From Nitratireductor indicus C115 (GTDB taxonomy: Bacteria; Pseudomonadota; Alphaproteobacteria; Rhizobiales; Rhizobiaceae): 64,000 bases of DNA. A model generated the notes under the pieces. That model worked only from the letters and a program-made list of their open reading frames with translations. It did no database searches and was not told the DNA's origin. Positions 4,471 through 30,945 of this stretch are shown here, piece by piece (within the stretch, counting starts at the first letter, position 1; each line of letters starts with the position of its first letter). The stretch lies in NCBI RefSeq assembly GCF_000300515.1, contig NZ_AMSI01000001.1, positions 186,001 to 250,000 on the forward strand, in the 5' to 3' direction. A program made the position numbers and the translations under genes.

Positions 4471-5529
4471 ATGCTTGCGCTGCGCAAGGCGAAGCCCGCA
4501 TTTGGTGCGGAGCTTGCCGATTTGCCTGTTCCCGTGCATCCGCCCGAACGCGGTTCGGTGCGTATTCGCGTCGGGGCGGCGGGCATCTGCGGAAGCGACC
4601 TTCATGCCTATGAATGGACGGGCGGCTATCAGTTCATGGAGCGGCTCATGCCGCTCACGCTCGGTCACGAATTTGCCGGAACGGTTGTCGAGGCGGGTAA
4701 CGGTGTTTCCGCTCTCGCCATCGGCGATCGCGTCGTTTGCTGGCCGACGATCTTCTGTGGCTCCTGCGTGGGTTGCATCGCCGGCCGGCCCGAAGAGTGC
4801 CGTTCCCGCCGCGTCATCGGCCTGCACTGCGATGGCGGGTTTGCCGAATTCGTCGATGTTCCGGAAGCCAACTGCTTTCGCCTTCCCGATGAGGTGCCGA
4901 TGGATGTGGCAGCGCTTGCCGAGCCGCTGGCCGTCTCCGTCAACGCCGTCGACCTTGCCGAGGTCGAGCCGGGCGATGCCGTCGTGGTGCTGGGGCCGGG
5001 GCCCATCGGTATGGCCGCGGCCTGGGTCGCGCAGCAGCGCGGTGCGGACGTCCTGCTGGCGGGTTTCAAAGATGACGCGCGGCTCGATTGCGCGCGGCGC
5101 CTGGGGCTCATCCGCACGGCCGATCTGGCAAGCGAGACGCTGGACGCAGCCGTGGCGCGCGTTTTCGGTCGGGAGGCGGATCGGGTGATCGAGGCGACGG
5201 GTCATGCGGCTTCGGTTTCGGATGGTCTTTCGGTTTTGCGCCCCCGCGGCATTGTTGTCGTGGCGGGCATTCATCATGAGGCGTGTGAGCTGGATTTAAC
5301 CCGCTTCGTCCGGGAAAAGAAACAATTGCGGGGCGCGCACGATACGACGGAGCGTGCTTTCCGGGAAGCGATCTCGTTGCTTGTGGCCCACGGCCCGCAA
5401 TTGGCTCCCATGATCTCGTTGCGCGCGCCGCTTTCGCAGGCCGAAGGCGCATTCGAAAAAGCGCGCAGCCGCACGGCGGTCAAGGTTCTGCTGCTGCCGC
5501 AAACCCCTTCAGATGAGGATTTGGTATGA
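4471..5529 (+). CDS. Zinc-containing alcohol/polyol dehydrogenase (MDR family)
   Basis: A 352-residue NAD-dependent medium-chain dehydrogenase of the threonine/sorbitol dehydrogenase type. Catalytic zinc ligands appear as CGSDLH near residue 39 and GHEFAG near 65. The structural zinc lobe has its four Cys spaced C-x2-C-x2-C-x7-C (CGSCVGC...C). The Rossmann motif is VVVLGPGPIGMAAA. It is the first gene of the GntR-controlled operon and has a strong AGGAGGAG ribosome-binding site. Its stop overlaps the next start as ATGA at 5526-5529. It likely oxidises a secondary alcohol of the operon's substrate; the exact substrate is not evident. Confidence 0.88.
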   Translation: MLALRKAKPAFGAELADLPVPVHPPERGSVRIRVGAAGICGSDLHAYEWTGGYQFMERLMPLTLGHEFAGTVVEAGNGVSALAIGDRVVCWPTIFCGSCVGCIAGRPEECRSRRVIGLHCDGGFAEFVDVPEANCFRLPDEVPMDVAALAEPLAVSVNAVDLAEVEPGDAVVVLGPGPIGMAAAWVAQQRGADVLLAGFKDDARLDCARRLGLIRTADLASETLDAAVARVFGREADRVIEATGHAASVSDGLSVLRPRGIVVVAGIHHEACELDLTRFVREKKQLRGAHDTTERAFREAISLLVAHGPQLAPMISLRAPLSQAEGAFEKARSRTAVKVLLLPQTPSDEDLV

Positions 5530-6527
5530 CCGAGATGACCCGTTCCGTCATTGCGGATGGCGCCGGCGGAAGCGATGTATTGCGCATCGTCGAGCGCCCG
5601 CTGCCCGCATGCGGCCCGAACGAAATGATCGTGCGCGTGCATGCGGCCGGCATCAATCGCCCGGATGTGATGCAGCGTCAGGGCAACTATCCGCCCCCGC
5701 CAGGCGCAACGGATGTTCTGGGTCTGGAACTGGCGGGCACCGTTGAAAGCGTCGGCGAAGCCGTCACGCGCTTTGCGCCGGGCGCCCGCGTCATGGCGCT
5801 GGTGGCCTCCGGCGCCTATGCCGAGCGGGCCGTGGTGCACGAAGATGTCGCCATCGGCATACCCGACGCCATGGGATTCGTCGAAGCCGGCGCGGTGCCG
5901 GAAACCTACTTCACGGTCTGGAGCAATGTTTTCGAGCGGGCCGGGCTGGTTTCTGGCGAAACGCTTCTCGTTCACGGTGGCACGTCCGGCATCGGCTCGA
6001 CGGCGATCCAGCTCGCCAAGGCGCGGGGTTCCACGGTGATTGCCACCGCCGGCACCGACGAAAAATGCGATGCCTGCGTCAAGATCGGCGCCGATCATGC
6101 CATCAACTACCGCAAGGCCGACTTCGTTGAAGAAGCTCGCAGGCTTACGGATGGGCGTGGCCCCGATGTCATCCTCGACATGGTGGGGGCGCCTTATTTT
6201 CAGCGCAACCTGGACCTTGTCGCCGTCGATGGCCGCATCGCGCAGATCGCCTTTCAGTATGGCAGCAAGGCGGAGCTCGATCTCGGTCCGTTGCTCTTCA
6301 AGCGGCTGACATTGACCGGATCGACGCTGCGCGCCCGCCCTGTTGCGATGAAGGCGAGGCTTGCCCGCGCGCTGGAGGAGAATGTCGTTCCGCTCCTCGC
6401 CCGCAAGGAGGCCTGGCCGATCATCGATAGCGTTTTTCCATTTGACCAGGTCGCCCGTGCCCATGAGCGCATGGATGGCGGAAATCATGTCGGCAAGATC
6501 GTTCTGACAATGACGCACGAAGCTTGA
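5526..6527 (+). CDS. NAD(P)H-quinone oxidoreductase (QOR/PIG3 type)
   Basis: A 333-residue zinc-free MDR protein. Visible are AAGINRPDVMQRQGNYPPPPGATDVLGLELAG near the N-terminus, the LLVHGGTSGIGSTAIQLAK nucleotide-binding motif near residue 150, and GRIAQIAFQYG later on, matching the PIG3-like quinone oxidoreductase family. It overlaps the preceding dehydrogenase by 4 bp, so the two are translationally coupled, and is followed 19 bp later by the ThDP enzyme. In this operon it could reduce an enone intermediate or recycle reducing equivalents through quinone; neither can be shown from sequence. Confidence 0.87.
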   Translation: MTEMTRSVIADGAGGSDVLRIVERPLPACGPNEMIVRVHAAGINRPDVMQRQGNYPPPPGATDVLGLELAGTVESVGEAVTRFAPGARVMALVASGAYAERAVVHEDVAIGIPDAMGFVEAGAVPETYFTVWSNVFERAGLVSGETLLVHGGTSGIGSTAIQLAKARGSTVIATAGTDEKCDACVKIGADHAINYRKADFVEEARRLTDGRGPDVILDMVGAPYFQRNLDLVAVDGRIAQIAFQYGSKAELDLGPLLFKRLTLTGSTLRARPVAMKARLARALEENVVPLLARKEAWPIIDSVFPFDQVARAHERMDGGNHVGKIVLTMTHEA

Positions 6528-16359: not shown

Positions 16360-17184
16360 TCAGCCGCCGAAGCCGAAGCCGGCGGGCATATCGGTGAGCA
16401 TGACGCCGAACGGCTCGAGGCTCTTGAGGATCCAGGTCTGGTTGTTGCCGATGCGGCGGTTGTATTCCGCCCAGGCCGAAACGAAGCTCTTGAAGGTTTC
16501 GTCCGTACCGTAATTGACCGCGATGACCGACGGTGTGGAGAGAACGGGCGTCGGAACCTTCACCGCGCCGATGGCCGGCGCCTTCTTTGAGATCACCAGA
16601 CCGTTCAGCATGGTGTTGACGAGGGCGTCCGCCTTGCCGGTGGTCACGGCCACGATGGCCTCGTCACGGGTCTTGAAGCGCAGGATGTTCGCCTTGGGAA
16701 GATATTGCTGCGTCATCAGGTCCTGCGCGGAGCCGAGGTCGACGGCGAATGTGTATTGCGGGTCGTTGAGCTCATTCCAGCTCTTGCCGTTCAGTTCGTC
16801 CTTCGCCGACACCAGCACGAAGCTGTTGTAATAGGTGGGATCGGAGAACGAGACCGACATGGCGCGAACCGGCGTTGCCGTCACGGCGAAGGCCATATCC
16901 ACCTTGCCGCTCTGCACGTCGAGAATGGCGTTGGCCCAGCTGGATTCGACGACTTCGAGCTTCACGTCCAGCGTCTTGGCAATGTCGTTCGCCATGTCGA
17001 TGACAAAGCCCTGCCACTCGCCGGTGCGCGGATCCTTGTTGAAGTAGGGCACCTCGTTGAGGATTGCCGGAATGCGCAGCACGCCGCGCGAGCGGATGTC
17101 GTCGATCGTTCCGGCATGTGCCACGCCGGTCAAAAGCGATAGCGCGACGGTTGCCGCGCCGCAGATCTTGGAAATCAGGTTCAT
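16360..17184 (-). CDS. Polar amino acid ABC transporter substrate-binding protein
   Basis: A 274-residue periplasmic protein of the family-3 (HisJ/GlnH) type. It has a signal peptide ending TGVAHA before GTIDDIRSRGVLRI. Domain features are EWQGFVIDMANDIAK, SGKVDMAFAVTATPVRA and VDLGSAQD. A GGAGG ribosome-binding site precedes the ATG. It is transcribed downstream of the LysR gene on the minus strand, while the matching-type permease and ATPase lie on the plus strand at 24.5-25.9 kb, so the transporter seems to be split across the cluster. Ligand is probably an amino acid handled by the neighbouring enzymes. Confidence 0.9.
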   Translation of the reverse strand: MNLISKICGAATVALSLLTGVAHAGTIDDIRSRGVLRIPAILNEVPYFNKDPRTGEWQGFVIDMANDIAKTLDVKLEVVESSWANAILDVQSGKVDMAFAVTATPVRAMSVSFSDPTYYNSFVLVSAKDELNGKSWNELNDPQYTFAVDLGSAQDLMTQQYLPKANILRFKTRDEAIVAVTTGKADALVNTMLNGLVISKKAPAIGAVKVPTPVLSTPSVIAVNYGTDETFKSFVSAWAEYNRRIGNNQTWILKSLEPFGVMLTDMPAGFGFGG

Positions 17185-17275
17185 GTCAGGTCCTCCATCG
17201 TTCCCCGAGAGTTTGTGAGGTCCGGCTCCGCGCCTCTTTTATGGAGGGCGCGGCGTTTTCGGCCGAAAGACAGCC

Positions 17276-17327
17276 TATCCGCGGATACCGCAGGGACAAT
17301 GCTAGAGACGCGGAGCAACTTATCCGC
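17276..17327. promoter_or_regulatory. Palindrome and repeated half-site upstream of the binding protein
   Basis: TATCCGCGGATA at 17276-17287 is a perfect 12-bp palindrome 92 bp upstream of the binding-protein start, and the half TATCCGC recurs at 17321-17327. This spacing fits a regulator-binding region for the binding-protein gene, possibly for the LysR protein, but that protein also has a different candidate site (18322-18364). Confidence 0.4.
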
Positions 17328-17344
17328 TTTTTTATATGTTGGCT

Positions 17345-18274
17345 TCAAAGCGGCGGATGAGAGAACTCGCCGCCGCGCGGCGGATCGAGAACGGGTCCGA
17401 CGAGTTCGCGCTGGCAATCTTCGAAGAGCTGCTGCACCGTTGAATGAGTCTGCAGGAATCCGGCCGTGCCGAAATAGACGCGCACTTCCGGCAGGTTGGT
17501 GAGCTTGGTCGATTTGATTGTCACGTCTTCGGGAGCGATGCACCAGGAGGGGATGATGGAGAAGCCGAGACCTTCCTCTACGCAGCGCTTTACGCTCGAA
17601 CTGCCCGAGGTGGAAATGACCGGCTGCACGATGGCGCCGTCGCGGCTCAGGAAATCGACGGCGAGATTGCGCAGCGTCTGGCCGGGCTCGAAGGTGATGA
17701 AGGGACGTCCCTCGGCCCAGGCCGGAATATCCTGCTGGCTGGGAATATCGCCCCATTCCCGTGGATAGACCAGGCTCAGGCGATAGCTGCCGAGCAGGCG
17801 CTGCGGCACCACCGGATCGCCGAAATAGCGCTCGGAGATGCAGACATCGAGACTGCCGTTCTTGACGAGCTCCGCCAGAACCGTGTCGCGCTCATAGACG
17901 GCGAACTCCATTTCAGGGAAGTTCTCGCGAAACCGGGCCAGTACCTGCGGAAAGAGGTAGAAGAAGATCGCCTGCGGCATGCCCACCCGCAGCGACGAGC
18001 GTTGGTTCTCGATCAGCTTGGTCAGCCGCTCGAGCATGATGTCGAGCTCCGGGTGCAGGAGATTGTAGAGCGCGCGTCCGCGCGGCGTCAGCGCGATGCG
18101 TTTTGCCCCCTGCTCGGATTCGATCAGCTTGCCCTTCAGAATCTGCTCCAGCCGACGCACGTGATTGGCCGCCGACTGGTAGCTCAGGTTCAGCTCGCGT
18201 GCGGCGCCTGAAAAGGACCCGTGCCGGGCGACCTGATAGAAGGTCTGGATGAGCGTGAGGCTTATCTTGGCCAT
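17345..18274 (-). CDS. LysR-family transcriptional regulator
   Basis: A 309-residue LysR-type regulator. The N-terminal winged helix (residues 1-65) shows TLIQTFYQVARHGSFSGAARELNLSYQSAANHVRRLEQ, and the C-terminal periplasmic-binding-like effector domain begins near residue 92 (SSLRVGMPQAIFFYLFPQVLARFRENFP). It is divergent from the D-amino-acid dehydrogenase operon with a 124-bp gap and reads toward the binding-protein gene. It is therefore the likely regulator of the whole 16.3-27 kb cluster. The effector is unknown. Confidence 0.92.
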   Translation of the reverse strand: MAKISLTLIQTFYQVARHGSFSGAARELNLSYQSAANHVRRLEQILKGKLIESEQGAKRIALTPRGRALYNLLHPELDIMLERLTKLIENQRSSLRVGMPQAIFFYLFPQVLARFRENFPEMEFAVYERDTVLAELVKNGSLDVCISERYFGDPVVPQRLLGSYRLSLVYPREWGDIPSQQDIPAWAEGRPFITFEPGQTLRNLAVDFLSRDGAIVQPVISTSGSSSVKRCVEEGLGFSIIPSWCIAPEDVTIKSTKLTNLPEVRVYFGTAGFLQTHSTVQQLFEDCQRELVGPVLDPPRGGEFSHPPL

Positions 18275-18321
18275 GATCGTATTCCCCTTCCTGCAGCCTT
18301 AAGGGGCGCACGCCTTCTATC

Positions 18322-18364
18322 CGATACAAATTTCGTGAACTTGCAAGGCCGTCATCTTGTATCG
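18322..18364. promoter_or_regulatory. Inverted repeat in LysR / dehydrogenase divergent promoter
   Basis: CGATACAA (18322-18329) and TTGTATCG (18357-18364) form a perfect 8-bp inverted repeat with a 27-bp spacer in the gap between the LysR gene and the divergent operon. Paired distant half-sites of this sort fit a LysR-type tetramer contacting recognition and activation sites. Confidence 0.5.
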
Positions 18365-18398
18365 ACGGTGAAAGCGGCCTGCCATCAATATCCGGGGC

Positions 18399-19610
18399 AT
18401 GACAACCATCCCGGTTTGCGCGATGAGAGCCCGTTCACTTTCCAGTCTTCCGTCCGCCGTCGTTATCGTCGGTTCGGGCATTGTGGGCGCCGCCACGGCC
18501 TATTTCCTGGCGCGGCGCGGGATCGAGGTCCGTCTCGTGGAGGCCGTCGCGCCCGCAGCTGAAGCGACCGGAGCAGCCGATGGCGCGGTGTCGGTTGCCA
18601 GCAAGCGACCAGGCCCCATGATGGAAGCTGCTCTGGCGGGTGTCCGCCTCTATCGTGAACTGGAATCGGAGGGCCTGTTCTCCGGCTTCTTCAAGACGCG
18701 CTCGACCTTCATCGTTGCGGCCTCACAGGCCGAATGCGCCGTTCTGGAAGCACATTCCGCTGCGCTGGCGGGTGCTGGTGTCCGCATCGATATCCTCCAG
18801 CATGAAGAGCTTCGCCAGCGCATGCCTGCTGTGTCGGGCGAGGCGATGATGGCTGTCGAGGTTCATGATGAAGGCCATGCCATCGGTTATCAGATCGTCC
18901 ACCGCCTTCTCACGGCGGCGGGCATCGTCGTCCATCGCGGCGCAGTGGTGGAAGGCTTCCTCCCGTCATCGAGCGGCAATGGCGTTCGCGGTGTGATGAC
19001 GAAGCATGGCCCTGTCGAGGGTGACGCGGTCGTGGTCGCCGCCGGCACGGGCTCGGGGGCCTTGCTCGGCTTTTCCGATGTGCTGACGCCGCGCAAGGGC
19101 CAGCTTCTGGTGACCGAGCGCGCGCCTGAGCTGAATGCCGGTCTGCCAGGGGCCATCATGTCAGGGCGCTATCTTCTGTCCAAGGGAAGCCAGAATTCGG
19201 GACATGGTGCGCCCGCGCGCGGGCTTGGCCTGGTCATCGACCCGCTGCGCACCGGCCAGTTTCTGATCGGCGGGACCCGCGAGGATCATGGCGACCGCAC
19301 GCTCAACGATGTGGAGGCCGTTGCAAAGATACTGCGCGATGCCGTGGCGCTTCTGCCGGGCCTTGCAAATGTGCGCCTTCTGCGCAGCTTCGCAGGCAGC
19401 CGCACGGCGGTTGCCGACGGGCTTCCCCTGATCGGCCGCGTTCCAGGTCGCGACAATCTTTTTGTGGCGACCGGTTTCGAAGGCGATGGCATCTGCCTTG
19501 GCCCGCTTACGGGCAAGGTGGTTGCCGATCTCGTTTGCGGCGAAGCTCCTTCGCTTGACCTGCGTCCGTTCGATCCCGCCCGTTTCGGTGCATGCGAGGT
19601 GGCGGCATGA
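18399..19610 (+). CDS. FAD-dependent D-amino acid dehydrogenase, beta-type subunit
   Basis: A 403-residue DadA/glycine-oxidase-fold flavoprotein. The FAD motif is VVIVGSGIVGAATAYFLARRGIEV near residue 20, and the C-terminal FAD contacts appear as RSFAGSRTAVADGLPLIGRVPG and VATGFEGDGICLGPLTGK. It is followed without gaps by a small 2Fe-2S protein and a large FAD/NAD protein, which together match the three-subunit D-hydroxyproline/D-amino-acid dehydrogenase type described from Pseudomonas. This subunit would carry the amino-acid oxidation site. It overlaps the next gene as ATGA at 19607-19610. The start at 18399 is preceded by a weak GGGG site; ATG 18423 is possible. Confidence 0.82.
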   Translation: MTTIPVCAMRARSLSSLPSAVVIVGSGIVGAATAYFLARRGIEVRLVEAVAPAAEATGAADGAVSVASKRPGPMMEAALAGVRLYRELESEGLFSGFFKTRSTFIVAASQAECAVLEAHSAALAGAGVRIDILQHEELRQRMPAVSGEAMMAVEVHDEGHAIGYQIVHRLLTAAGIVVHRGAVVEGFLPSSSGNGVRGVMTKHGPVEGDAVVVAAGTGSGALLGFSDVLTPRKGQLLVTERAPELNAGLPGAIMSGRYLLSKGSQNSGHGAPARGLGLVIDPLRTGQFLIGGTREDHGDRTLNDVEAVAKILRDAVALLPGLANVRLLRSFAGSRTAVADGLPLIGRVPGRDNLFVATGFEGDGICLGPLTGKVVADLVCGEAPSLDLRPFDPARFGACEVAA

Positions 19611-19861
19611 GCGGCGCGACCTTCTTCTGGATGGGCCGGAGCATCCCTTTTCAAGAGGGCGAAAGCATTGCCTCTGCGCTGGATGCCGCGGGCATGGTGT
19701 CTTTCGGACCGGGCGTGCCACCGTCGCAGATGCGCTTTTTCTGCGGCATCGGCGCGTGCCAGTGCTGCCTTGTGCGCGTCGATGGAGCGACCCGTGAGGC
19801 TTGCCTTACAGCGGCTGCAGCCGGGCTTGAGGTCGAGCCGGCGGGAGGTGCGCATGGCTGA
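19607..19861 (+). CDS. 2Fe-2S ferredoxin-like small subunit of amino acid dehydrogenase
   Basis: An 84-residue protein of the Fer2_4/SoxA-N type. The cluster-binding Cys lie in FFCGIGACQCC and REACL, giving a C-x4-C-x2-C...C pattern with one extra Cys. It overlaps the upstream flavoprotein by 4 bp and the downstream flavoprotein by 8 bp, so the three are co-translated and very likely form one complex. Its role is electron transfer between the two flavin subunits. Confidence 0.85.
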   Translation: MSGATFFWMGRSIPFQEGESIASALDAAGMVSFGPGVPPSQMRFFCGIGACQCCLVRVDGATREACLTAAAAGLEVEPAGGAHG

Positions 19862-21215
19862 TCCGGATGTGCTCATCGTTGGAGCGGGGCCGGCGGGGCT
19901 TGCTGCAGCCGTCGAACTCGCGGCCTCCGGCGTCTCTGTCGAACTGGCCGAACAGCGCGGGACCATTGGCGGCGCGATCTATCGTCAACCCATTTCAGCT
20001 GCGACCCCGGTCCCGCAGGCTGCCGCCGCCAAAGCACGCTGGCGCTCCCTGTCGGCGGCCTTTGACGAAAGCGGGGTCCGGGTTCGCCATGCCACGGTGT
20101 TTCTTGGGATAGAGGCCGATGGGCAGGTTCTTTTGGACGACCGCCGCAGCGGCGGGGTCGTGTGCCTCCGTCCGAAGGTCGTTATTCTCGCCACCGGCGC
20201 GGTCGAGACCGTCCACCCGCGTCCAGGCTGGCATCTCGCGGGCGTGACGACGGCTGGTGGCCTGCAGGTGATGATGAAGGAGCGGGGCCGTGCGCCCGAG
20301 GGTCGCGTCATTCTGGCCGGAAACGGCCCCTTGCTGATTGCGGTTGCAGCGCAGATGGCGCGCCTCGGCAATCCACCCGTTGCGGTGGTTGAGGCGGGCG
20401 ATCCTTTCCGCCGACCCGCCGCCGGCCTCGGATTGCTCGCCTTTCCGGGACTGTTGCGCGAAGCGGCAGGCTACGTCCTTGACGTCAAACGCCACCGTGT
20501 ACCCTGGCTGCGCGGAACCCGGCTTGCCGCCATCGAACCCCAAGGAGAAGGTTTCGCCGTCACCCTGGAGGATGCGCGTGGAACCCGGCGGATGGAGGTT
20601 GATCGCGTCGCCTTGCACGATGGCATCAGGCCGAACGATTTCGGTTTGCCGCAGGTCGGCGGACGCGGTGAGGGGCCGTTGGTTCTTCATGCCGGCGATT
20701 GCCGCGAAGCGCTCGGTGCGCCGGCAGCCGGGGCCGATGGCCATCGTGCCGCCCGCGAGGCGATCCGCCATCTTGGTGCGGACCGCACGGCCAATTCGCG
20801 GGAAGGCCGCGACATCGCGCGTTACCGCAAGGCGCAGGCACTGCTTGCAAGGCTCTTTGCGCCTTTGCCCGAGGCGCTGCCGTTTGAAAACCTTCCTGAT
20901 GAAACCCTCCTCTGCCGCTGCGAGGGACGGACGGTCGGTGATCTGCGCGCTCTCTGCGAGATGCCGGATCGGCTGACGGGTCGCGAGGTCAAGCACAATG
21001 GGCGTTTTGCTATGGGGGCATGCCAGGGACGCTTCTGCGCGGCCAACACGGCAGTGCTGATGGCGCGCATGCGCCCCGAAGCGCCTGCGCCGACACCTGT
21101 GGATCTGACCGGCCGCCGCTGGCCGGCACGACCTGTTTCCATTGGCGCGCTGATGCAGGCAGCACCCGAAAACACCGATCAAGACAAAGAAATGACTGAC
21201 GAGGTTCACAAATGA
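19854..21215 (+). CDS. NAD(P)/FAD-dependent oxidoreductase, alpha-type subunit with BFD-like domain
   Basis: A 453-residue protein. The N-terminal FAD motif is VLIVGAGPAGLAAAVELAASGVSV, an ATGAVET motif follows, and a second nucleotide site shows VILAGNGPLLIAVAAQMARLG near residue 145. The C-terminal region has LLCRCEGRTVGDLRALCE and GACQGRFCA, a BFD-like 2Fe-2S domain. This layout matches the large subunit of heteromeric D-hydroxyproline, opine or cyanide-forming dehydrogenases. The ATG at 19854 overlaps the small subunit. It likely passes electrons onward to the respiratory chain. The overlap with the next gene is ATGA at 21212-21215. Confidence 0.83.
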   Translation: MADPDVLIVGAGPAGLAAAVELAASGVSVELAEQRGTIGGAIYRQPISAATPVPQAAAAKARWRSLSAAFDESGVRVRHATVFLGIEADGQVLLDDRRSGGVVCLRPKVVILATGAVETVHPRPGWHLAGVTTAGGLQVMMKERGRAPEGRVILAGNGPLLIAVAAQMARLGNPPVAVVEAGDPFRRPAAGLGLLAFPGLLREAAGYVLDVKRHRVPWLRGTRLAAIEPQGEGFAVTLEDARGTRRMEVDRVALHDGIRPNDFGLPQVGGRGEGPLVLHAGDCREALGAPAAGADGHRAAREAIRHLGADRTANSREGRDIARYRKAQALLARLFAPLPEALPFENLPDETLLCRCEGRTVGDLRALCEMPDRLTGREVKHNGRFAMGACQGRFCAANTAVLMARMRPEAPAPTPVDLTGRRWPARPVSIGALMQAAPENTDQDKEMTDEVHK

Positions 21216-22609
21216 TGCAGACGCAACGCGTAACCGTTTCCGCTCACAAGGCGGCCGTCGTCCGCAACCCCTTCGATGGCTCCCTTGTCGGTGAGGTCGT
21301 CGAGGCAGCGCCCGCCGAAATCTCGGCTGCGGTTCTCCGCGCCAGAGGTGCCGGGCATGATTTCCGCCATTCCACTCCGGCCGAACGCCGTGCGATGCTC
21401 AATGCGCTGGCTGCCGAGATCGCTTCGGATGCGGAAAATCTGGCGCGCATCATCTCCTCGGAGATGGGGAAGACCATTCGCGAAGCGCGCAATGAGGTGC
21501 GCCGCGCGCAGAACACGCTGAAGCTCTCCGGCGATGCAGCGACCTTCCTCGATGGTGAAGTGCTCAACTGCGCAATCGTCGAGGGCGGTGCCCGGCGGCA
21601 GGCGATGGTGACCTACGAGCCCGTCGGCGTCATCGGTGCGATAACCCCGTTCAACTACCCGCTCAATCTTCTCTGCCACAAGCTGGGCCCGGCAATCGCC
21701 GCTGGCAATGCGGTGGTGGCAAAACCGTCGCCCAAGGCGCCGCTGGCGGCTGCCCGCCTGCGCGAACTGGCCTTGAAGGCCGGTTGGCCGGACCATCTCT
21801 TCCAGATCGTTCAGGGTGGTGCCGAGGCGGCGCTGGCGCTCGTTTCCGCGCAGATCGACCTCCTCTCCTTCACGGGTGGTCCAGCGGCCGGCCTTGCTCT
21901 CAAGAATGCCAGCGGCCTCGTCCGATGCCTGATGGAGCTTGGCGGCAACGACCCGCTTTTCGTGCTGCCCGACGCCGATCTCGACAAGGCGGTGGCCACC
22001 ACCATCGGTCACCGTTTCGAGATCGCCGGACAGAGCTGCGCCGCGGTGAAGAAACTCTACCTCCACCGCGACATCGAAAAGACCTTCACCGAAAAGCTGC
22101 TCGCTGCCGTGGATGCGGTCGAGTTCGGCGATCCCTCGCGGGACGATACGGATATGGGAACCGTGATCGACCTTGCCGCCGCACAAACGGTGGCGGAGCG
22201 GGTCGAGGCGACGCTCGCCTCCGGCGCGCGCCTTTTGCATGGGGGCACCCATGATGGGACCCTCTTCGCTCCGACCGTGATTTCCGATGTGGCGCCTCAT
22301 GCGCCGGTTATCGCCGACGAGACGTTCGGCCCCATCATCGCCATCCGCAGCTTCACCGATGCGGGCGAGGCGATCGCCGAAGTGAACGCCGGGGCCTATG
22401 GGCTCCAGGCGGGTGTTTTCACCAACGATCACGCGCTGATCAAGCGCTTCTCCCGCGATCTGATCGTGGGTGGCGTGATGATCAACGAAGGTCCGGATTT
22501 CAGGGCGGAGCATGTGCCTTTCGGCGGCGTCAAGCGCAGTGGTCTCGGGCGCGAGGGGGTGCGGATCGCCCTGCGCGAGATGTCGGAACCCAAAGTGGTG
22601 ATCGACTGA
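21212..22609 (+). CDS. Aldehyde dehydrogenase (NAD(P)-dependent)
   Basis: A 465-residue ALDH-superfamily enzyme. Visible are VGVIGAITPFNYPLNLLCHKLGPAIAAGNAVVAKPS near residue 130, the catalytic Glu in MELGGNDP near 247, the nucleophile Cys in GQSCAAVKK near 280, and the C-terminal PFGGVKRSGLGREG. It overlaps the dehydrogenase alpha subunit (ATGA), so it is part of the same operon. It probably oxidises a semialdehyde derived from the amino acid, such as alpha-ketoglutarate semialdehyde or aminoadipate semialdehyde; the sequence alone does not distinguish these. Confidence 0.88.
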   Translation: MMQTQRVTVSAHKAAVVRNPFDGSLVGEVVEAAPAEISAAVLRARGAGHDFRHSTPAERRAMLNALAAEIASDAENLARIISSEMGKTIREARNEVRRAQNTLKLSGDAATFLDGEVLNCAIVEGGARRQAMVTYEPVGVIGAITPFNYPLNLLCHKLGPAIAAGNAVVAKPSPKAPLAAARLRELALKAGWPDHLFQIVQGGAEAALALVSAQIDLLSFTGGPAAGLALKNASGLVRCLMELGGNDPLFVLPDADLDKAVATTIGHRFEIAGQSCAAVKKLYLHRDIEKTFTEKLLAAVDAVEFGDPSRDDTDMGTVIDLAAAQTVAERVEATLASGARLLHGGTHDGTLFAPTVISDVAPHAPVIADETFGPIIAIRSFTDAGEAIAEVNAGAYGLQAGVFTNDHALIKRFSRDLIVGGVMINEGPDFRAEHVPFGGVKRSGLGREGVRIALREMSEPKVVID

Positions 22610-22620
22610 GGGGGAGAGCC

Positions 22621-23370
22621 ATGCGGATCGCTGTTTTCGGCGCGTCGGGGCGGGTCGGCACGAAGCTGGTGGAGCTGGTTCTTGCCAATCCGGGGTTGGA
22701 CCTGGTGGCTGCTCTTGTCTCTCCGGGGTCGCGGCTGGTCGGTTCGCCCGTTGCGGGCGGCAGCCTGGAATACCGCCCGGCCGAAGCGGCGATGAACACG
22801 CATAACGACGTGATGATCGACTTTTCCACGCCCTCTGCGAGTCTGGCTTTGCAGAAAGATGTGGGCACCAAACCCATCCCGATGGTGATCGGCACCACCG
22901 GCTTTTCACCGGAGGAGCAGGAACGCCTGATCGAGTGGTCCACTCATCGCCCGCTTCTCGTCAGCGCCAATTTCGCCCGTGGGTTCGAAGCCTTCCGCCT
23001 GGGCGCGGTGGAGTTTGCCGGGCGGATGCCGGACGCGGAAGCATCCGTCGGCGAGATTTATCACGCCCGCAAGAAGAACGAACCTTCAGGCACGTCGCGA
23101 TTGCTGGCACGCGATCTTTTCGAGAAACGCAGCCGGACGATGGGCTTTGCAGCGCCTGAACCGCCGGTTTCCGTGCGCCGGGAAGGCGACACGGTGGGCG
23201 TCAACGAGGTGCGTTTCGACATGGGATCGGCCGAGCTGGTCATGACCTACCGGGTTCATGCGCTGGCGGCCTATGCCGAGGGCGCTTTGGCGGCGGCCCA
23301 ATGGCTGGTGTCCCGCAATGGCGGTCCCGGGCTTTACAGCCTCGCGGACAGCCTGGCCGGAAAAGGATGA
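22621..23370 (+). CDS. DapB-like (dihydrodipicolinate reductase family) protein with altered catalytic site
   Basis: A 249-residue protein with the DapB layout: Rossmann start VFGASGRVGTKLVELV, GTTGFS near residue 91, SANFARGF near 115, and the substrate loop at 144-159. In DapB that loop carries two adjacent His, a Lys and PSGT. Here it reads Y147-H148, K151 and P155-S156-G157-T158, so the position of the usual general acid (E. coli His159) is Tyr while the rest is kept. Housekeeping dapB is normally elsewhere and this copy lies between ALDH and DapA-like genes in a catabolic operon. It may reduce a different cyclic imine. Confidence 0.75.
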   Translation: MRIAVFGASGRVGTKLVELVLANPGLDLVAALVSPGSRLVGSPVAGGSLEYRPAEAAMNTHNDVMIDFSTPSASLALQKDVGTKPIPMVIGTTGFSPEEQERLIEWSTHRPLLVSANFARGFEAFRLGAVEFAGRMPDAEASVGEIYHARKKNEPSGTSRLLARDLFEKRSRTMGFAAPEPPVSVRREGDTVGVNEVRFDMGSAELVMTYRVHALAAYAEGALAAAQWLVSRNGGPGLYSLADSLAGKG

Positions 23371-23383
23371 TGAGGACGAAAGG

Positions 23384-24310
23384 ATGACGACGATGAACGA
23401 ACTGGCAAACCGCTTCAAGGGTGTGTTCACCGCGCTGGTCACCCCGTTCAGGGACGGTGCGGTCGACTACGCTGCTTACGATGCTCTGGTCGAACGGCAG
23501 CTTGCGGCCGGCGTCGCAGGCCTCGTGCCGGTTGGTACCACGGGCGAGGCGGCAACACTTTCCGACGAGGAAGCCGAAGAGCTGATCGCACGCACCGTCC
23601 GGCTGGCAAGCGGCCGGGCACTGGTGATGGCAGGCGCCGGCGCCAACGACACGAGCAAGACCGTCGACAAGGTGAAGCGCGCGGAAAGGGCAGGTGCCGA
23701 TGCGCTTCTGATTGTCACGCCCTATTACAACAAGCCGACCCAGGAAGGGTTGATCGCCCACTATGGCGCTGCCGCCGAGGCAACCGGCTTGCCGATCATG
23801 CTCTATTCGGTTCCCGGCCGTTGCGGCGTCGAGATTGCGCCCGAAACCTGCGCGACCCTGATGCAGCGGCATTCCAATATCGTTGCCATGAAGGAAGCGG
23901 GCGGCGATGCGGGCCGGGTGACGCGCCTGCGCCAGGCATGCGGCGAAAGCCTTATCATTCACTCCGGCGACGATGGGCTTACCCTGCCGTTCCTGTCGCT
24001 CGGCGCGCTCGGTGTCACGAGCGTCGTTGCCAATGTCGCTCCCGGCGAAATGGTGCGTATGGTTGAGGCCTGGCAGAGGGGCGAGACGACGAGGGCGCTC
24101 GCCTTGCACGAGATGATCGCAGAATTGACCGATGCCATGTTCATCGAAAGCAATCCGGGTCCGGTCAAGGCCGCACTTGCCCTGTCGAATCTTGCCGGGC
24201 CCGAAATGAGGCTGCCCATGGTGCCGGTGTCGAGCGGCAATCGCGAGAAGCTTGCCGGTGTGCTCGGGCGCTTTGCCTCCGCCTCCTCCTCCTTCCAAGA
24301 AATGCGCTAA
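23384..24310 (+). CDS. DapA-like (4-hydroxy-tetrahydrodipicolinate synthase family) aldolase/lyase
   Basis: A 308-residue TIM-barrel class I aldolase. The active-site set of true DapA is complete: GTTGEAATLS (Thr52, Thr53), TPYYNKPTQEGL, Tyr141 and Arg146 in YSVPGR, and Schiff-base Lys170 in VAMKEAGGD. Arg in PGR is the residue that binds the substrate carboxylate in DapA. Despite this its setting is catabolic, beside an odd DapB homolog and an amino-acid transporter. It could be a second DHDPS, or a lyase/deaminase for a similar dicarboxylate. The start is ATG 23384 (MTTMNE) or 23393. Compare the different DapA-family gene at 52512. Confidence 0.82.
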   Translation: MTTMNELANRFKGVFTALVTPFRDGAVDYAAYDALVERQLAAGVAGLVPVGTTGEAATLSDEEAEELIARTVRLASGRALVMAGAGANDTSKTVDKVKRAERAGADALLIVTPYYNKPTQEGLIAHYGAAAEATGLPIMLYSVPGRCGVEIAPETCATLMQRHSNIVAMKEAGGDAGRVTRLRQACGESLIIHSGDDGLTLPFLSLGALGVTSVVANVAPGEMVRMVEAWQRGETTRALALHEMIAELTDAMFIESNPGPVKAALALSNLAGPEMRLPMVPVSSGNREKLAGVLGRFASASSSFQEMR

Positions 24311-24363
24311 CGGTCGCGAGAACCTTTGCATTGTCTGTAGCGGATGGACATAGAACAGTGAAC

Positions 24364-24391
24364 GGGCCGCGATTGTCGGCAATTGCGGCCC
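24364..24391 (+). promoter_or_regulatory. Stable stem-loop in the DapA-like/permease gap
   Basis: GGGCCGCGATTG (24364-24375) pairs with CAATTGCGGCCC (24380-24391) through a TCGG tetraloop; the 12-bp stem has one G-U pair. There is no T-tract, so it is more likely an mRNA-stability or attenuation structure than a terminator. It lies just before a short ORF and the permease gene. Confidence 0.5.
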
Positions 24392-24417
24392 AAGAACAAA
24401 GAGAACGGGGAATCAGG

Positions 24418-24495
24418 ATGATCGCCAAGACAAGCAGCGCCTGGCGCCGCCGGAGCATTTCCGACGACGCCATGCCGGCAAGGGGAACGCGATGA
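24418..24495 (+). CDS. Possible 25-codon leader ORF coupled to the permease
   Basis: ATG at 24418 opens a 25-codon frame (MIAKTSSAWRRRSISDDAM, then PARGTR and TGA) whose stop overlaps the permease start as ATGA. It follows an ACGGGG/CAGG purine stretch and a stable hairpin. It has a run of three Arg. It could be a leader peptide that couples translation into the permease, or chance; there is no homology I recognise. Confidence 0.3.
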   Translation: MIAKTSSAWRRRSISDDAMPARGTR

Positions 24496-25157
24496 GCTAC
24501 AACTGGGATTTTCATTCGGTCTGGCAGTATTACGATCTCTTTCTCTGGGGATTGTGGATCAGCGTCGTCTACACCTTCGGGTCCATTTTCTTCGGCGTCA
24601 TCATCGGCTTTCTGACCTGCGCTGCGCGTCTGTCGCACTGGCGCGTTCTCAACGTCATCGCCCGGGTCTACCAGGAGATATTCCGCTGCACCCCGTTGCT
24701 CGTTCAGTTGCTGTGGTTCTATTACGCCTTCCCGCTCCTGATCGGCGCATCGATAGACAATCGCGTCGCGGGCATGCTGACGCTGTCGCTTTATGTCGGC
24801 GCCTTTTATGCGGAGATTTTCAGGGGCGGCATCGTTTCCATCGACCGGGGGCAGCGCGAGGCCGCTGCCGCAATCGGCATGAGCCCCTGGCAGTCGATGA
24901 AGCGCATCATCCTGCCGCAGGCGCTGAAGCGCGTTCTACCCTCGTTCATCAACCAGTCGGTGATCCAGTTCAAGAACACCTCTCTGGTCTCGGTCATTTC
25001 CGTGGCCGACCTTGCCTATATGGCCGCCGTGGTGAACGGGCAGACCTATCGCCCGCTTGAATCCTACACGGTGATGGCTGCGCTCTACATCCTGATGCTC
25101 CTGCCTCTGACGCAGGCTGCCGACTGGATCGAAAAGCGGCTTCGCGTGAGCGACTGA
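24492..25157 (+). CDS. Polar amino acid ABC transporter permease (HisM/GlnP type)
   Basis: A 221-residue inner-membrane permease. It shows the N-terminal SVVYTFGSIFFGVIIGFLTCAARLS segment, TPLLVQLLWFYYAFP, and the EAA loop QREAAAAIGMSPWQSMKRIILPQALKRVLPSFINQSVIQFKNTSL. Only one permease gene is present, so the pore is presumably a homodimer. It pairs with the ATPase that follows 8 bp later and with a family-3 binding protein, probably the one at 16360. Confidence 0.92.
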   Translation: MSYNWDFHSVWQYYDLFLWGLWISVVYTFGSIFFGVIIGFLTCAARLSHWRVLNVIARVYQEIFRCTPLLVQLLWFYYAFPLLIGASIDNRVAGMLTLSLYVGAFYAEIFRGGIVSIDRGQREAAAAIGMSPWQSMKRIILPQALKRVLPSFINQSVIQFKNTSLVSVISVADLAYMAAVVNGQTYRPLESYTVMAALYILMLLPLTQAADWIEKRLRVSD

Positions 25158-25165
25158 GTGGAGGC

Positions 25166-25945
25166 ATGACCATGAACGCACAAGCACGGAATTCCACCCC
25201 CATCATCGAAGCGCTGTCCCTGCATAAGAGCTATGGCAAGCACGAGGTGTTGAAAGGGCTTGATCTCAGCCTCGACCGCGGTGAGGTGGTGGCTCTGATC
25301 GGCCCCTCCGGTTCGGGAAAGTCGACCTTTATTCGCTGCCTCAACATGATGGAAATCCCCACGGGCGGCACGGTGCGCTTTCGCCAGAAGACGGTCGGCG
25401 ATCATTTCCGCGACAAGGGCGGGGAGATTGGCATCGGCACGCTGCGGCGCCATGTCGGTATGGTCTTCCAGCACTTCAACCTGTTTCCGCACAAGACGGT
25501 GCTGCAGAACGTGACCGAAGGTCCGATCGTGGTCTGCAAGACCCCGAGAAAGGAAGCCGAGGAGCGGGCAATGGACCTCCTGTCCCAGGTCGGACTGGCG
25601 GAGAAGCACGGTGCCTATCCAAACCATCTATCAGGCGGGCAGAAGCAGCGCGTGGCCATCGCCCGTGCCCTTGCCATGGAGCCGGAAGTGCTTCTCCTCG
25701 ATGAGGTGACGAGCGCTCTAGACCCGGAACTGGTCGGGGAGGTTCTGTCCGTGATCCGGGGGTTGGCGGAAAAGGGTATGACCATGGCCATCGTCACCCA
25801 TGAAATGGCTTTCGCGGCGGATGTCGCCAGTCGCGTCCTGTTTCTCGATCAGGGCGTCATAGCCGAGTCCGGATCGGCAGATCAGGTCATTCTCAACCCG
25901 CAGAACCCCCGCCTTCAGGGGTTCGTTTCCCGGTTCAGGGGGTGA
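25166..25945 (+). CDS. Amino acid ABC transporter ATPase (HisP/GlnQ type)
   Basis: A 259-residue ATPase with Walker A GPSGSGKST near residue 45, Q-loop VFQHFNLFPHKTVLQNVTEGP, signature LSGGQKQRVAIARALAMEP, Walker B VLLLDEVTSALDPELVGEVL and a His switch in VTHEM. All motifs are intact. Its stop overlaps the GTG at 25942 and lies 5 bp before the ATG of the next gene. It powers the amino-acid transporter of the cluster. Confidence 0.94.
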   Translation: MTMNAQARNSTPIIEALSLHKSYGKHEVLKGLDLSLDRGEVVALIGPSGSGKSTFIRCLNMMEIPTGGTVRFRQKTVGDHFRDKGGEIGIGTLRRHVGMVFQHFNLFPHKTVLQNVTEGPIVVCKTPRKEAEERAMDLLSQVGLAEKHGAYPNHLSGGQKQRVAIARALAMEPEVLLLDEVTSALDPELVGEVLSVIRGLAEKGMTMAIVTHEMAFAADVASRVLFLDQGVIAESGSADQVILNPQNPRLQGFVSRFRG

Positions 25946-25950
25946 TTGGA

Positions 25951-27027
25951 ATGCAGCCGTTCAAGGTCTCGATCTTCGGCGCGGGCAAGGTGGGCGCGGC
26001 CCTTGCGGGCGCGCTTGCCGGAAGGCCGGGTTTTGCGGTCGAGGTGATCGACTGTTCCGAAGATGCGATAGACCGGCTGCGCGGTCTCGACCTGCCGGTG
26101 GGTGTGCGTTCCTATGGCTATCGCGATGAATTGCCCTCGCTTCTGGCGGGCTGCGATGCGGTGGTGGCTGCTGTGCCCGAGGCCGCTCGTCCGGAAATCG
26201 CCGCAGCGGCTGTGCAGGCAGGTGCACATTATCTCGATTTCTCGCCGGCCCGCGAGCGCATGCGTGAAATTCTGGCACCGCTCGCGCAACGTCGCGCCGT
26301 AATGATGGGATGCGGCGTTTCGCCGGGGGTCATCGATAATGTCGCGACAGGTCTTCTGGAAACCCTTGCGCCGGTCAGCGACCTTACCATTCGCGTCGGG
26401 GCCATACCGCGCTTTCCCACGAATCGGCTCGGCTATGGCCATATCTGGAATGTGGGCAGCCTGATCGACGAATACACTCTGCCGAGCGCGGCGTTGCGGG
26501 ACGGGCAGGCGGTGAACCTTGCGCCGCTCGAGGAGTATGAGCAGATTCGCATCGACGGCGTGACCTATGAGGGGTTTGTAACCTCCGGCGGCTTGGAGGA
26601 CCTTTCGCTTCTGGCCGAGGCAGGACCGCGCAACATCACCTTCAAGACCCTGCGCTATCCCGGACATCTGGATTACATGCGCTTTCTGCTCGATGATCTT
26701 GGTCTTCGGAACCGGCGCGACATGCTGCGCACGCTTCTGATGAACGGCTTGCCGGAAATCGCTGACGACGTGCTCGTCCTTGCCGTGACGGCGAAGGGAA
26801 TGCGGGATGGAAACTCGTGCGAGAAGACGGTGGTCCACCGCTTCCAGCCTGAGGGTGAAGACGGCCCGTTCAACGCCCTGAGCTCGGTTGCCGCCGGCTA
26901 TGCGGCAAGCCTGCTATCGCGCCTTCGCGCAGGTGAAATCGCGAAGGCGGGCTTCGTCGCTCATCATCGCTTGAAGGCGTCCGAGCTTCTCAGCGGCGAG
27001 TTTTTGGGGCCGCTTCTCAAGGCCTAG
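25951..27027 (+). CDS. Saccharopine/lysine dehydrogenase-like oxidoreductase
   Basis: A 358-residue protein with the Rossmann start VSIFGAGKVGAALAGALAG followed by the saccharopine-dehydrogenase-type domain (VVAAVPEAARPEIAAAAVQAGAHYLDFSPAR, MGCGVSPGVIDNVATGLLE, TLRYPGHLDYMRFLLDDLG). The closest described functional relatives that I know are L-lysine 6-dehydrogenases and saccharopine reductases. It closes the transporter operon. It may form or reduce a cyclic or semialdehyde intermediate of a lysine-like substrate. Start ATG 25951 is preceded by GGGGGTGATTGG; a GTG at 25942, overlapping the ATPase stop, is an alternative. Confidence 0.78.
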   Translation: MQPFKVSIFGAGKVGAALAGALAGRPGFAVEVIDCSEDAIDRLRGLDLPVGVRSYGYRDELPSLLAGCDAVVAAVPEAARPEIAAAAVQAGAHYLDFSPARERMREILAPLAQRRAVMMGCGVSPGVIDNVATGLLETLAPVSDLTIRVGAIPRFPTNRLGYGHIWNVGSLIDEYTLPSAALRDGQAVNLAPLEEYEQIRIDGVTYEGFVTSGGLEDLSLLAEAGPRNITFKTLRYPGHLDYMRFLLDDLGLRNRRDMLRTLLMNGLPEIADDVLVLAVTAKGMRDGNSCEKTVVHRFQPEGEDGPFNALSSVAAGYAASLLSRLRAGEIAKAGFVAHHRLKASELLSGEFLGPLLKA

Positions 27028-29368: not shown

Positions 29369-29944
29369 ATGAGCAGAACTGCCCTCAAGCCGTTTGATCG
29401 CCGATTAGCGCTGTCGGCGCGTATGGTGTTGATCATTGTCGCCGGCGCCGTGTTGATGACGATTGCCGCCAAGGTGCAGATACCGTTCTGGCCGGTGCCG
29501 ATGACCCTGCACACAATGGCAGTCATGGCTTTTGCCGTGGTGTTGGGGCCGCGCATTGCCGTCTCCATCTTCCTCGCCTATCTCGCGGCAGGGGCCGTGG
29601 GCCTTCCGGTGTTTTCGGGTTCGCCCGAACGCGGCATCGGCTTTTCCTACATGGTTGGCCCGACGGGCGGTTATCTTCTGGGCTATCTCATCGCCTCTTG
29701 GTTTGTGGGCGTTATGGCCGCCGGCAAGGGTACGCCGGGGCGGCTTGTGGCGATGCTTGCCGGAATGGTGCCGGTCTATGCAATCGGCATGGCGTGGCTC
29801 GCCCTTTATGTTCCGGCGGGGCAGCTTCTCGCCGTCGGTGCTTTGCCCTTCCTTCTGGGAGATATTACCAAGATTGCCGTCGTTGCGGTGGTCTGCGCCG
29901 CGCTGCCGGCAACGGTTGCTCGTCTTCAGGGGCAATCGGAATGA
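29369..29944 (+). CDS. bioY: Biotin ECF transporter substrate-specific component BioY
   Basis: A 191-residue integral membrane protein that binds biotin with high affinity. It has about six hydrophobic segments and the BioY hallmarks [66 protein letters not shown] and a C-terminal [22 protein letters not shown]. No bioM/bioN genes are adjacent, so it works alone or with ECF units elsewhere. It overlaps bioB as ATGA (29941-29944) and is preceded by two BioR boxes, consistent with biotin-repressed uptake and synthesis. Confidence 0.95.
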
Positions 29945-30945
29945 GCGCGGCGGACCAAACGATCCGGCACGACTGGACGGTCGAGCAGATTGTGACCCTG
30001 CACGAGCTGCCATTGCTTGAACTGGTAGGACGCGCCAACGCCGTCCATCGCCGGTATCACGATCCGAACAGGGTCCAGAAGGCGAGCCTTTTGTCCATCA
30101 AGACCGGCGGATGTCCGGAGAACTGCGCCTATTGTCCGCAATCGGCCCATCACCGCGAGGTCGCGCTGACCCGCGACCGCCTGATGGACCCTGCAAGGGT
30201 GCTTGCCATGGCTGCGAAGGCCAGAGCCGCGGGCGCGGAGCGTTTCTGCATGGGAGCAGCATGGCGCCAGGTGCGCGATGGCAAGGAGTTCGATGCCGTG
30301 ATTGCGATGGTCGAGGGCGTTCGCGCCCTCGGCATGGAAGCCTGCGTCACACTCGGCATGCTGAAGCCGCATCAGGCTGAACGGCTGGCTGCGGCGGGCC
30401 TGACCGCCTACAACCACAATCTCGACACCAGCCCGGAATTCTACGGTCGCATCATCAGCACCCGCACCTATGAGGACCGCCTGGAAACGCTCGCAACGGT
30501 GCGCGCCTTTGGCATCGACCTGTGCTGCGGTGGGATCATCGGCATGGGCGAAACGGTGCGCGACCGCGCCTCGATGCTGCAGGTTCTTGCGGCAATGGCA
30601 CCTCACCCCGAAAGCGTGCCGATCAATGCGCTCGTACCGGTCAAGGGAACGCCGCTGGCGGACCGGCCGCTTATCGACCCTCTGGAGCTGGTGCGCATGG
30701 TGGCGACGACCCGCCTTGTCATGCCCGTGGCAACGATCCGTCTTTCCGCCGGGCGCTCGACCCTCAACCGTGAGGCGCAGATCCTGTGTCTTCTGGCGGG
30801 CGCGAACTCCGTGTTCTATGGCGAAGCGCTGCTCACCACCCCCAATGCGGAGATCGGCGAGGATGCCGAACTTTTTGCCGCAATCGGCAAGCCGCGCCGC
30901 GCCGGGGGTGCACAGGCCGTCGAGCTTGCACATGGCGGGCAATGA
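29941..30945 (+). CDS. bioB: Biotin synthase
   Basis: A 334-residue radical-SAM enzyme that inserts sulfur into dethiobiotin. The 4Fe-4S motif is CPENCAYC near residue 55, in the context [20 protein letters not shown]. Other family stretches are [41 protein letters not shown] and [14 protein letters not shown]. The ATG overlaps the bioY stop. The other biotin genes (bioF, D, A) are not in the window, so this organism separates bioB from them or lacks part of the route. Confidence 0.96.

Follow-up and report, generated by a model that had tools for sequence, protein, structure and literature searches.

The DNA analysed here, a 64,000-nucleotide stretch of the genome of Nitratireductor indicus C115 (contig NZ_AMSI01000001.1, positions 186,001 to 250,000; hereafter the window), carries a gene cluster that combines oxidative enzymes with homologs of the lysine-biosynthetic proteins DapA and DapB. 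An earlier note, made from the sequence alone, had described at 18399..27027 a three-subunit D-amino-acid dehydrogenase overlapped by an aldehyde dehydrogenase (ALDH) gene and followed by DapB, DapA, an amino-acid transporter and a saccharopine/lysine-dehydrogenase-like protein (SDH). Employing Pfam and NCBIfam profile matches with their cut-offs, we found these genes in that order and with that overlap, all on the plus strand and with the coordinates given in the note. The full unit is wider and comprises 11 genes at 16360-27027: genes for a LysR-type regulator and a solute-binding protein, both on the minus strand, lie to the left of the stretch described earlier and are conserved along with the enzyme genes (Table 1). 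The gene for the catalytic dehydrogenase subunit (DAO) overlaps that for the 2Fe-2S subunit by 4 bases, the latter overlaps the gene for the FAD subunit by 8, and the FAD subunit/ALDH and ATPase/SDH pairs each overlap by 4.

Table 1. Genes and other features of the cluster (positions in the window)
Feature	Position	Strand	Profile match or remark
Solute-binding protein, family 3, of ABC importer	16360..17184	-	PF00497
LysR-type regulator, divergent to enzyme operon	17345..18274	-	PF03466, PF00126; retained in cluster loci
Perfect inverted repeat GATACAA-N27-TTGTATC, probable LysR operator	18323..18363		in LysR-DAO gap
DAO, catalytic FAD subunit of three-subunit dehydrogenase	18399..19610	+	PF01266
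2Fe-2S subunit of dehydrogenase	19607..19861	+	PF13510
FAD/pyridine-nucleotide subunit of dehydrogenase	19854..21215	+	PF07992
ALDH, proposed to convert aspartate-4-semialdehyde to aspartate	21212..22609	+	PF00171
DapB-like reductase paralog, non-canonical, dispensable	22621..23370	+	PF01113, PF05173
DapA paralog, dihydrodipicolinate synthase-type aldolase without lysine-feedback site	23384..24310	+	TIGR00674 above cut-off
ABC permease	24492..25157	+	TIGR01726 above cut-off
ABC ATPase	25166..25945	+	PF00005
SDH, saccharopine/lysine-dehydrogenase-like amine dehydrogenase	25942..27027	+	PF16653, PF03435; GTG start

A scan of named genomes returned 58 loci, 43 of them cluster-type, and a plasmid locus (L067) brought the named loci to 44. 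The cluster was complete at 40, cut by contig ends at three (L089, L104, L108) and present as a variant at one (L092); L103 and L112-L125, which encode a DapB relative with or without a neighbouring dapA, were left out of the count. Across 40 named cluster loci the solute-binding protein showed 64-97% identity. All 11 genes were present in 16 of 17 fetched neighbourhoods, the remaining one being a 4.3-kb contig; named and unnamed loci partly represent the same genomes, so the two counts are not additive. Relative to Nitratireductor sp. ZSWI3 (L068), dN/dS of the 11 genes was 0.02-0.17 (dS 0.5-1.8, the larger values being rough), and relative to L082 it was 0.06-0.26 (dS often >1); the genes are under purifying selection. 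The objection that the cluster might not be conserved in related genomes, raised in the earlier note, thus falls away, and a dedicated, co-inherited unit for amino-acid uptake and oxidation is supported.

The distribution of the cluster is patchy. In a same-family sample of 395 genomes, DapB matched at E <= 1e-20 in 46; 15 of these matches, that of the window's genome included, reached 1.6e-35 or better and were of cluster type. The remaining 31 matches, at 30-39% identity, presumably represent housekeeping DapB. Eight genomes listed in that sample belong to the genus, and three of them have the cluster. In an order sample of 397 genomes, four (own included) matched DapB at E <= 1e-30 and eight (own included) matched the binding protein at E <= 1e-80; the eight consisted of the four with DapB, three of one genus with DapB-less clusters (L159, L160 and L161) and G678, represented by 3.8 kb only. 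In a class sample of 385 genomes, the binding protein matched at E <= 1e-60 in five: the window's own genome, L151 with a complete cluster, and three at 41% identity. Hosts were mainly Hyphomicrobiales (Nitratireductor, Ciceribacter, Martelella, Hoeflea, Pannonibacter, Devosia and others), together with Rhodobacteraceae/Paracoccaceae, Azospirillum and one metagenome-assembled genome (MAG) labelled Arenimonas. Five plasmid records carried the cluster, and no relative of the DapB-like protein was found in viral contigs. Gene order varied: the importer genes, together with those for SDH and LysR, lie at the opposite side of the enzyme genes in Rhodobacter-type loci.

The genome of the window (4.99 Mb, 99.96% complete; G000 in coordinates) contains 16 places encoding proteins of the dihydrodipicolinate synthase (DHDPS) family. 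The best-scoring one is another dapA, on contig 5 (G000:C5:345973-346833), which outscored the cluster copy, and a second dapB (G000:C1:12995-13783) likewise scored above its cluster counterpart. Because these housekeeping genes sit elsewhere in the genome, the cluster dapA and dapB are paralogs, which disposes of the possibility, named in the earlier note, that they are the only lysine-synthesis genes of the organism. A further DHDPS-family gene lies within the window at 52566-53414 on the minus strand (G000:C1:238566-239414).

The cluster DapA scored 310.7 bits against the dapA equivalog model TIGR00674 (cut-off, 206). We compared 45 cluster DapA proteins (window plus 44 named loci) with a checked E. 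coli reference sequence. Thr44, Thr45, Tyr107, Tyr133, Arg138, Lys161 and Gly186 (E. coli numbers) were unchanged in 45/45; these are catalytic residues of DHDPS, and Arg138 binds the carboxylate of aspartate-4-semialdehyde (ASA). In the lysine-allosteric site, Ser48 was replaced by Ala in all 45 proteins and His53, His56 and Glu84 were each altered in all 45, whereas Asn80 and Tyr106 were retained throughout. The housekeeping DapA on contig 5 keeps all four lysine-site residues. The cluster DapA should accordingly be, as judged from its residues, a DHDPS-type aldolase free of lysine feedback, a property that fits an enzyme active while lysine-like compounds are abundant; the same residues are compatible with either direction of the reaction. 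The true DHDPS residues claimed for this protein in the earlier note were thus confirmed. Its description as not deaminase-like holds with respect to the equivalog cut-off and the residues tested; no HypD deaminase was aligned. No cluster of sufficient length lacked DapA.

DapB had been presented as a defining partner in the system, and this part of the proposal was not supported. The cluster DapB scored 112.3 bits against TIGR00036, below the 122-bit cut-off, although its Pfam DapB_N and DapB_C domains were above theirs. Among 46 proteins (window, 44 named loci and L057), the position of the catalytic His159 was occupied by Tyr in 44, His in one and Arg in one; His160 was retained in 34, Lys163 in 44, and in the SGT motif Ser and Gly were kept in 45 and Thr in 44. 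The loop was altered or absent in two members, L095 (Aminobacter carboxidus) and L057. Searches with SDH and the binding protein uncovered four clusters without DapB, which were invisible to the DapB-based sample: L138 on a plasmid of Chelatococcus sp. CO-6, where a gene of the Asp/Glu-racemase family follows SDH in place of DapB, and L159, L160 and L161. All four retain both dehydrogenases, ALDH and DapA, and their DapA proteins are the same at the ten positions checked, loss of the lysine site included. Since these clusters lack it, DapB is accessory rather than core, and we dropped it as a core enzyme once they had been found. Separately, in an Emcibacter MAG (L103, 6253-9738), a DapB-like protein of 39% identity is encoded directly 3' of a TonB-dependent receptor, with no match to the cluster DapA.

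The DAO, 2Fe-2S and FAD/pyridine-nucleotide subunits, encoded by overlapping genes, have the architecture of a three-subunit amine dehydrogenase of the opine/D-hydroxyproline type. The D-amino-acid specificity claimed for this enzyme is unproven: its catalytic subunit most resembles flavoproteins of the ThiO/glycine-oxidase type (ThiO gave the best NCBIfam match, though under the cut-off of that model), and stereochemistry cannot be read from sequence. At L076, the cluster is otherwise complete but a transposase-like gene (IS110-type by eye; 4561-5781, minus) separates the DAO gene from that for the 2Fe-2S subunit. At L065 (S. meliloti 1021 pSymA 762869-763972), L064 and L066, a paralogous LysR and three-subunit dehydrogenase, with 56-57% identity in DAO, accompany another ABC transporter, and there was no match to the cluster Dap, ALDH or SDH genes.

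The ALDH was nearest to the NCBIfam models for SafD, lactaldehyde and phosphonoacetaldehyde dehydrogenases; for none of the 25 models listed did its score reach the cut-off. It scored 233 bits against the ketoglutaric semialdehyde dehydrogenase model NF042993, for which the cut-off is 770 bits. This value bears on a hydroxyproline-type operon, composed of a flavoprotein, a DapA-family deaminase and ketoglutarate-semialdehyde dehydrogenase, with which the cluster shares the three enzyme superfamilies. Considering the ALDH score, a DapA above the dapA equivalog cut-off with all tested DHDPS residues present, and the lack of an epimerase among the conserved genes, we rejected this explanation as very improbable.

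The aldehyde handled by the cluster may be indicated by the variant locus L092, from Xanthobacteraceae bacterium Astr-EGSB 16. This locus possesses LysR, the three-subunit dehydrogenase, DapB, DapA and SDH; we found no ALDH and no ABC importer in it, and a TRAP transporter is encoded upstream of LysR. Directly downstream (3') of SDH lie, in order, genes for aspartate-semialdehyde dehydrogenase (ASADH), aspartokinase, a sodium symporter and aspartase. The ASADH and aspartase were above equivalog cut-offs; the aspartokinase was above a subfamily cut-off only, with PRK08210 as its best model. Another ASADH (48% identical) and another aspartokinase, above equivalog cut-offs, are encoded elsewhere in this genome, so those of the cluster are extra copies. 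The G+C content is even (0.62-0.69) and gives no sign of a chimeric contig. No further variant with ASADH and aspartokinase was found in a sample of 248 genomes of its own family, L092 being one of the 248. On the simplest reading, ASADH and aspartokinase would stand in for ALDH and the aldehyde would be ASA; the gene content of L092 points to ASA as an intermediate.

The same locus offers an argument for a biosynthetic direction, with the lysine-insensitive DapA and the DapB paralog making extra tetrahydrodipicolinate for some product: aspartokinase, ASADH, DapA and DapB would form a forward route from aspartate, and the loss of lysine feedback would suit overproduction. However, an importer and ALDH belong to the unit at 40 of the 44 named loci, ALDH is unable to supply ASA, and the active site of DapB is changed, the protein being missing or defective in some clusters. 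We therefore regard biosynthesis as improbable. Also to be weighed against L092 is the breakdown of a 4-hydroxy amino acid unrelated to diaminopimelate (DAP), such as 4-hydroxypipecolate or 4-hydroxylysine. The flavoprotein would generate a 4-hydroxy-2-oxo acid or cyclic imine, DapA would release pyruvate, and ALDH would oxidize the remaining aldehyde. Such a pathway would have the enzyme logic of DAP breakdown by DapA and ALDH in fewer steps and would need no DapB, which is dispensable; yet Arg138, which holds the ASA carboxylate, is kept in 45/45 DapA proteins, L092 has ASA-specific enzymes and no ALDH, and SDH would be left without a role. We consider it unlikely, though the most credible of the alternatives. 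That the cluster serves catabolism, with ASA as the compound on which its DapA and ALDH act, appears, to us, slightly better than an even bet.

SDH belongs to the lysine-dehydrogenase type, as the earlier note had it: in addition to its Pfam matches, its nearest solved structure is 3abi, and a weak match to carboxyspermidine dehydrogenase (8deb) was also listed. Many plasmids of Rhizobium, Azospirillum and Sinorhizobium encode relatives with 34-37% identity. Of four examined, an Lrp-type regulator gene adjoins L136 and L139 but not L135, and in L137 (Ruegeria sp. THAF33) the relative lies directly 5' of an ALDH. In Ruegeria pomeroyi, lysdh adjoins aasadh (SPO0234-SPO0235), and their functions are reported to have been verified (PMC4334477). 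On the basis of their family and of this lysdh-aasadh-like arrangement, the paralogs are probably lysine dehydrogenases (LysDH). LysDH-type paralogs were present in 67 of 171 sampled family genomes; none was detected in the window's own genome at E <= 1e-70.

We aligned 46 cluster SDHs with 34 paralogs. The two groups have 44 conserved identical positions in common. At position 162, Arg was present in 45/46 cluster proteins (exception, L097) versus Ala in 34/34 paralogs; the corresponding residues were Gly (42/46) versus Gln (34/34) at position 123, Phe (41/46) versus Tyr (34/34) at position 234 and Ile (40/46) versus Thr (34/34) at position 168. Gly164, Leu243 and Phe248 were further cluster-specific positions. 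Gln123, Ala162 and Tyr234, fixed in the probable lysine 6-dehydrogenases among the paralogs, are thus replaced in most cluster SDHs. The gained Arg162 would fit a substrate with one carboxylate more than lysine, such as DAP.

These comparisons also bear on ordinary catabolism of D/L-lysine or pipecolate, in which SDH would yield piperideine-6-carboxylate, ALDH would convert it to aminoadipate, and DapA and DapB would be passengers. The 44 shared positions and the adjoining lysdh and aasadh genes of R. pomeroyi speak for it. Against it, the ALDH falls well short of the model for L-piperidine-6-carboxylate dehydrogenase (214 versus 730 bits), SDH differs from all 34 paralogs at Arg162 and further positions, and DapA, a passenger on this view, is constantly present. 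This makes the explanation quite improbable. A substrate of the lysine/DAP size class, as guessed in the earlier note, nevertheless seems reasonable; dipicolinate was set aside, by reasoning only, because it offers no amine to two amine dehydrogenases.

The binding protein was compared with the LAO reference, which we checked. The Arg gripping the alpha-carboxylate was kept in 42/42 cluster proteins, the equivalent of LAO Asp161 was Thr in 42/42, and that of LAO Ser72 was Thr, not Gly, in 42/42. Six paralogous binding proteins also lack Asp161 (Val or Ala instead), and the operons of five of these also encode a flavoprotein together with either a racemase or an enzyme of enolase type. Importer operons of a related kind, with LysR and a flavoprotein oxidoreductase, were seen at L145, L146 and L149 (with an Asp/Glu-family racemase) and at L147 and L150 (with an enolase-superfamily enzyme); four of the five also have a thiamine diphosphate-dependent enzyme, and they resemble amino-acid catabolic units.

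An opine-like substrate, a secondary amine formed from pyruvate and an ASA-derived unit, was considered in this connection. The flavoprotein would free pyruvate, SDH would free ASA, and ALDH would oxidize the latter to aspartate, with DapA (and DapB where present) re-joining some ASA and pyruvate towards lysine. The three-subunit flavoprotein is of the type found in opine oxidases, and SDH is of the saccharopine type with its weak match to 8deb. The nopaline-binding NocT likewise lacks the Asp that holds the alpha-ammonium group (PMC4192606). We withdrew the missing Asp161 as evidence of substrate class, however, since the six paralogous binding proteins from other operons share the loss, which therefore does not single out opines. 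The NocT signature Gly97 is moreover replaced by Thr in 42/42, and the constant retention of DapA would have no explanation. An opine is accordingly an unlikely substrate, slightly less credible than a 4-hydroxy amino acid.

The LysR-DAO intergenic region contains the inverted repeat GATACAA-N27-TTGTATC, which occurs once in the 4.99-Mb genome and in 0 of 100 shuffles of the window. It was exact in 28 of the 44 named cluster loci and formed the most conserved block in an alignment of 36 LysR-DAO intergenic regions. LysR probably binds this candidate operator.

Additional neighbouring genes gave no clue to the substrate. No extra gene family was present in more than 16 of 48 loci, and the widest group (16/48) coincided with generic ABC ATPase matches. 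The next groups were found at 6 and 5 loci (the 5-locus group being of the short-chain dehydrogenase/reductase (SDR) type by eye), and the remainder were confined to near relatives. The DapB-less clusters L159, L160 and L161 each have an SDR-like neighbour (by eye), which was also seen at L067 and L092. In the window, two genes at 29369-30945 resemble bioY and bioB by eye.

Cells build DAP from exactly pyruvate and ASA, and we chose DAP, or a close relative, as the substrate that would account for most parts of the cluster. The family-3 ABC importer would take up the amino acid, and LysR would induce the operon via the inverted repeat. SDH would oxidize DAP with NAD(P) to tetrahydrodipicolinate, and the three-subunit flavoprotein would desaturate the latter, probably passing electrons to quinone. 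Addition of water would then give 4-hydroxy-tetrahydrodipicolinate (HTPA) or the corresponding open-chain compound. DapA, insensitive to lysine and acting as a retro-aldolase, would split this product into pyruvate and ASA, and ALDH would oxidize ASA to aspartate. DapB would be accessory, with no specific reaction assigned. Gene content, conservation, residue patterns, paralogy and the one candidate operator were observed; we infer the substrate, which of the two oxidations comes first, the retro-aldol direction of DapA and, from residues only, the insensitivity to lysine. By our own bookkeeping, the conversion of DAP to aspartate and pyruvate takes three two-electron oxidations, in agreement with two dehydrogenases plus ALDH, and the DapB-less clusters keep both dehydrogenases, ALDH and DapA, as the model requires. 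As a whole, this pathway is tentative, the account that we prefer but in which we place limited confidence.

Several points weigh against it. DapB is retained in most clusters, and the model leaves this unexplained. We know of no flavoprotein of this class that desaturates tetrahydrodipicolinate. The evidence from L092 comes from one genome, its ASADH and aspartokinase could supply ASA to DapA biosynthetically, and PRK08210 presumably corresponds to DapG of Bacillus, a type native to an operon that works in the forward direction. In SDH, the fixed Leu243 and Phe248 are bulkier than the side chains of the paralogs. In the binding protein, the Asp holding a primary alpha-ammonium group is replaced by Thr in 42/42, unlike what would be expected for a plain L-alpha-amino acid.

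In its most speculative form, which we hold to be doubtful, DAP would be dismantled by the committed biosynthetic steps run backwards: two dehydrogenases would lead to HTPA, the feedback-blind DapA would cleave it, and ALDH would yield aspartate or, in one variant, ASADH and aspartokinase (which could yield ATP) and then aspartase would take over. If the DAP pathway is true, cell-wall DAP could be used by a second route besides that of the decarboxylase, and the cluster would be a clean case of a DHDPS freed from lysine feedback and recruited to catabolism. Genes at present annotated as lysine biosynthesis would thereby acquire a function. Even with another substrate, the operon is well-bounded, regulated and patchily distributed. 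Among the papers listed from the open-access literature (subscription papers and preprints being outside the scope), we found no description of this cluster or its pathway; on DAP catabolism, PMC9602339 was the only paper obtained. The enzyme families are all known, but neither the way in which they are combined here, nor the altered SDH, nor the feedback-blind DapA is described in the literature searched.

The cluster resembles several known systems in part. Operons for trans-4-hydroxyproline encode D-hydroxyproline dehydrogenase, HypD and ketoglutarate-semialdehyde dehydrogenase, and both systems place a flavoprotein dehydrogenase, a DapA-fold enzyme and an ALDH behind an amino-acid importer; the present cluster differs in its DHDPS-like DapA, its other type of ALDH, the absence of an epimerase and the extra lysine-dehydrogenase-like enzyme. 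With DAP/lysine biosynthesis it shares the intact catalytic residues of DapA and, at L092, ASADH and aspartokinase, whereas the feedback site is lost, DapB is non-canonical and dispensable, an importer and oxidative enzymes are present, and the proposed direction is the reverse. Agrobacterium systems for the opines octopine and nopaline use a multi-subunit flavoprotein oxidase, a family-3 ABC importer and a LysR regulator; the cluster has these three elements but adds DapA, ALDH and SDH, and the NocT binding-site signature is half present. Compared to the lysine 6-dehydrogenase pathway (LysDH plus aminoadipate-semialdehyde dehydrogenase), its SDH is a paralog with the 44 shared positions but carries Arg162 and other fixed differences, and the partner ALDH is of another subgroup. 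Finally, marine Pseudomonadota use DAP through the decarboxylase LysA, via lysine, and the report on this route leaves other DAP routes open (PMC9602339); the substrate proposed for the cluster is the same, but the LysA route, unlike the pathway proposed here, passes through lysine.

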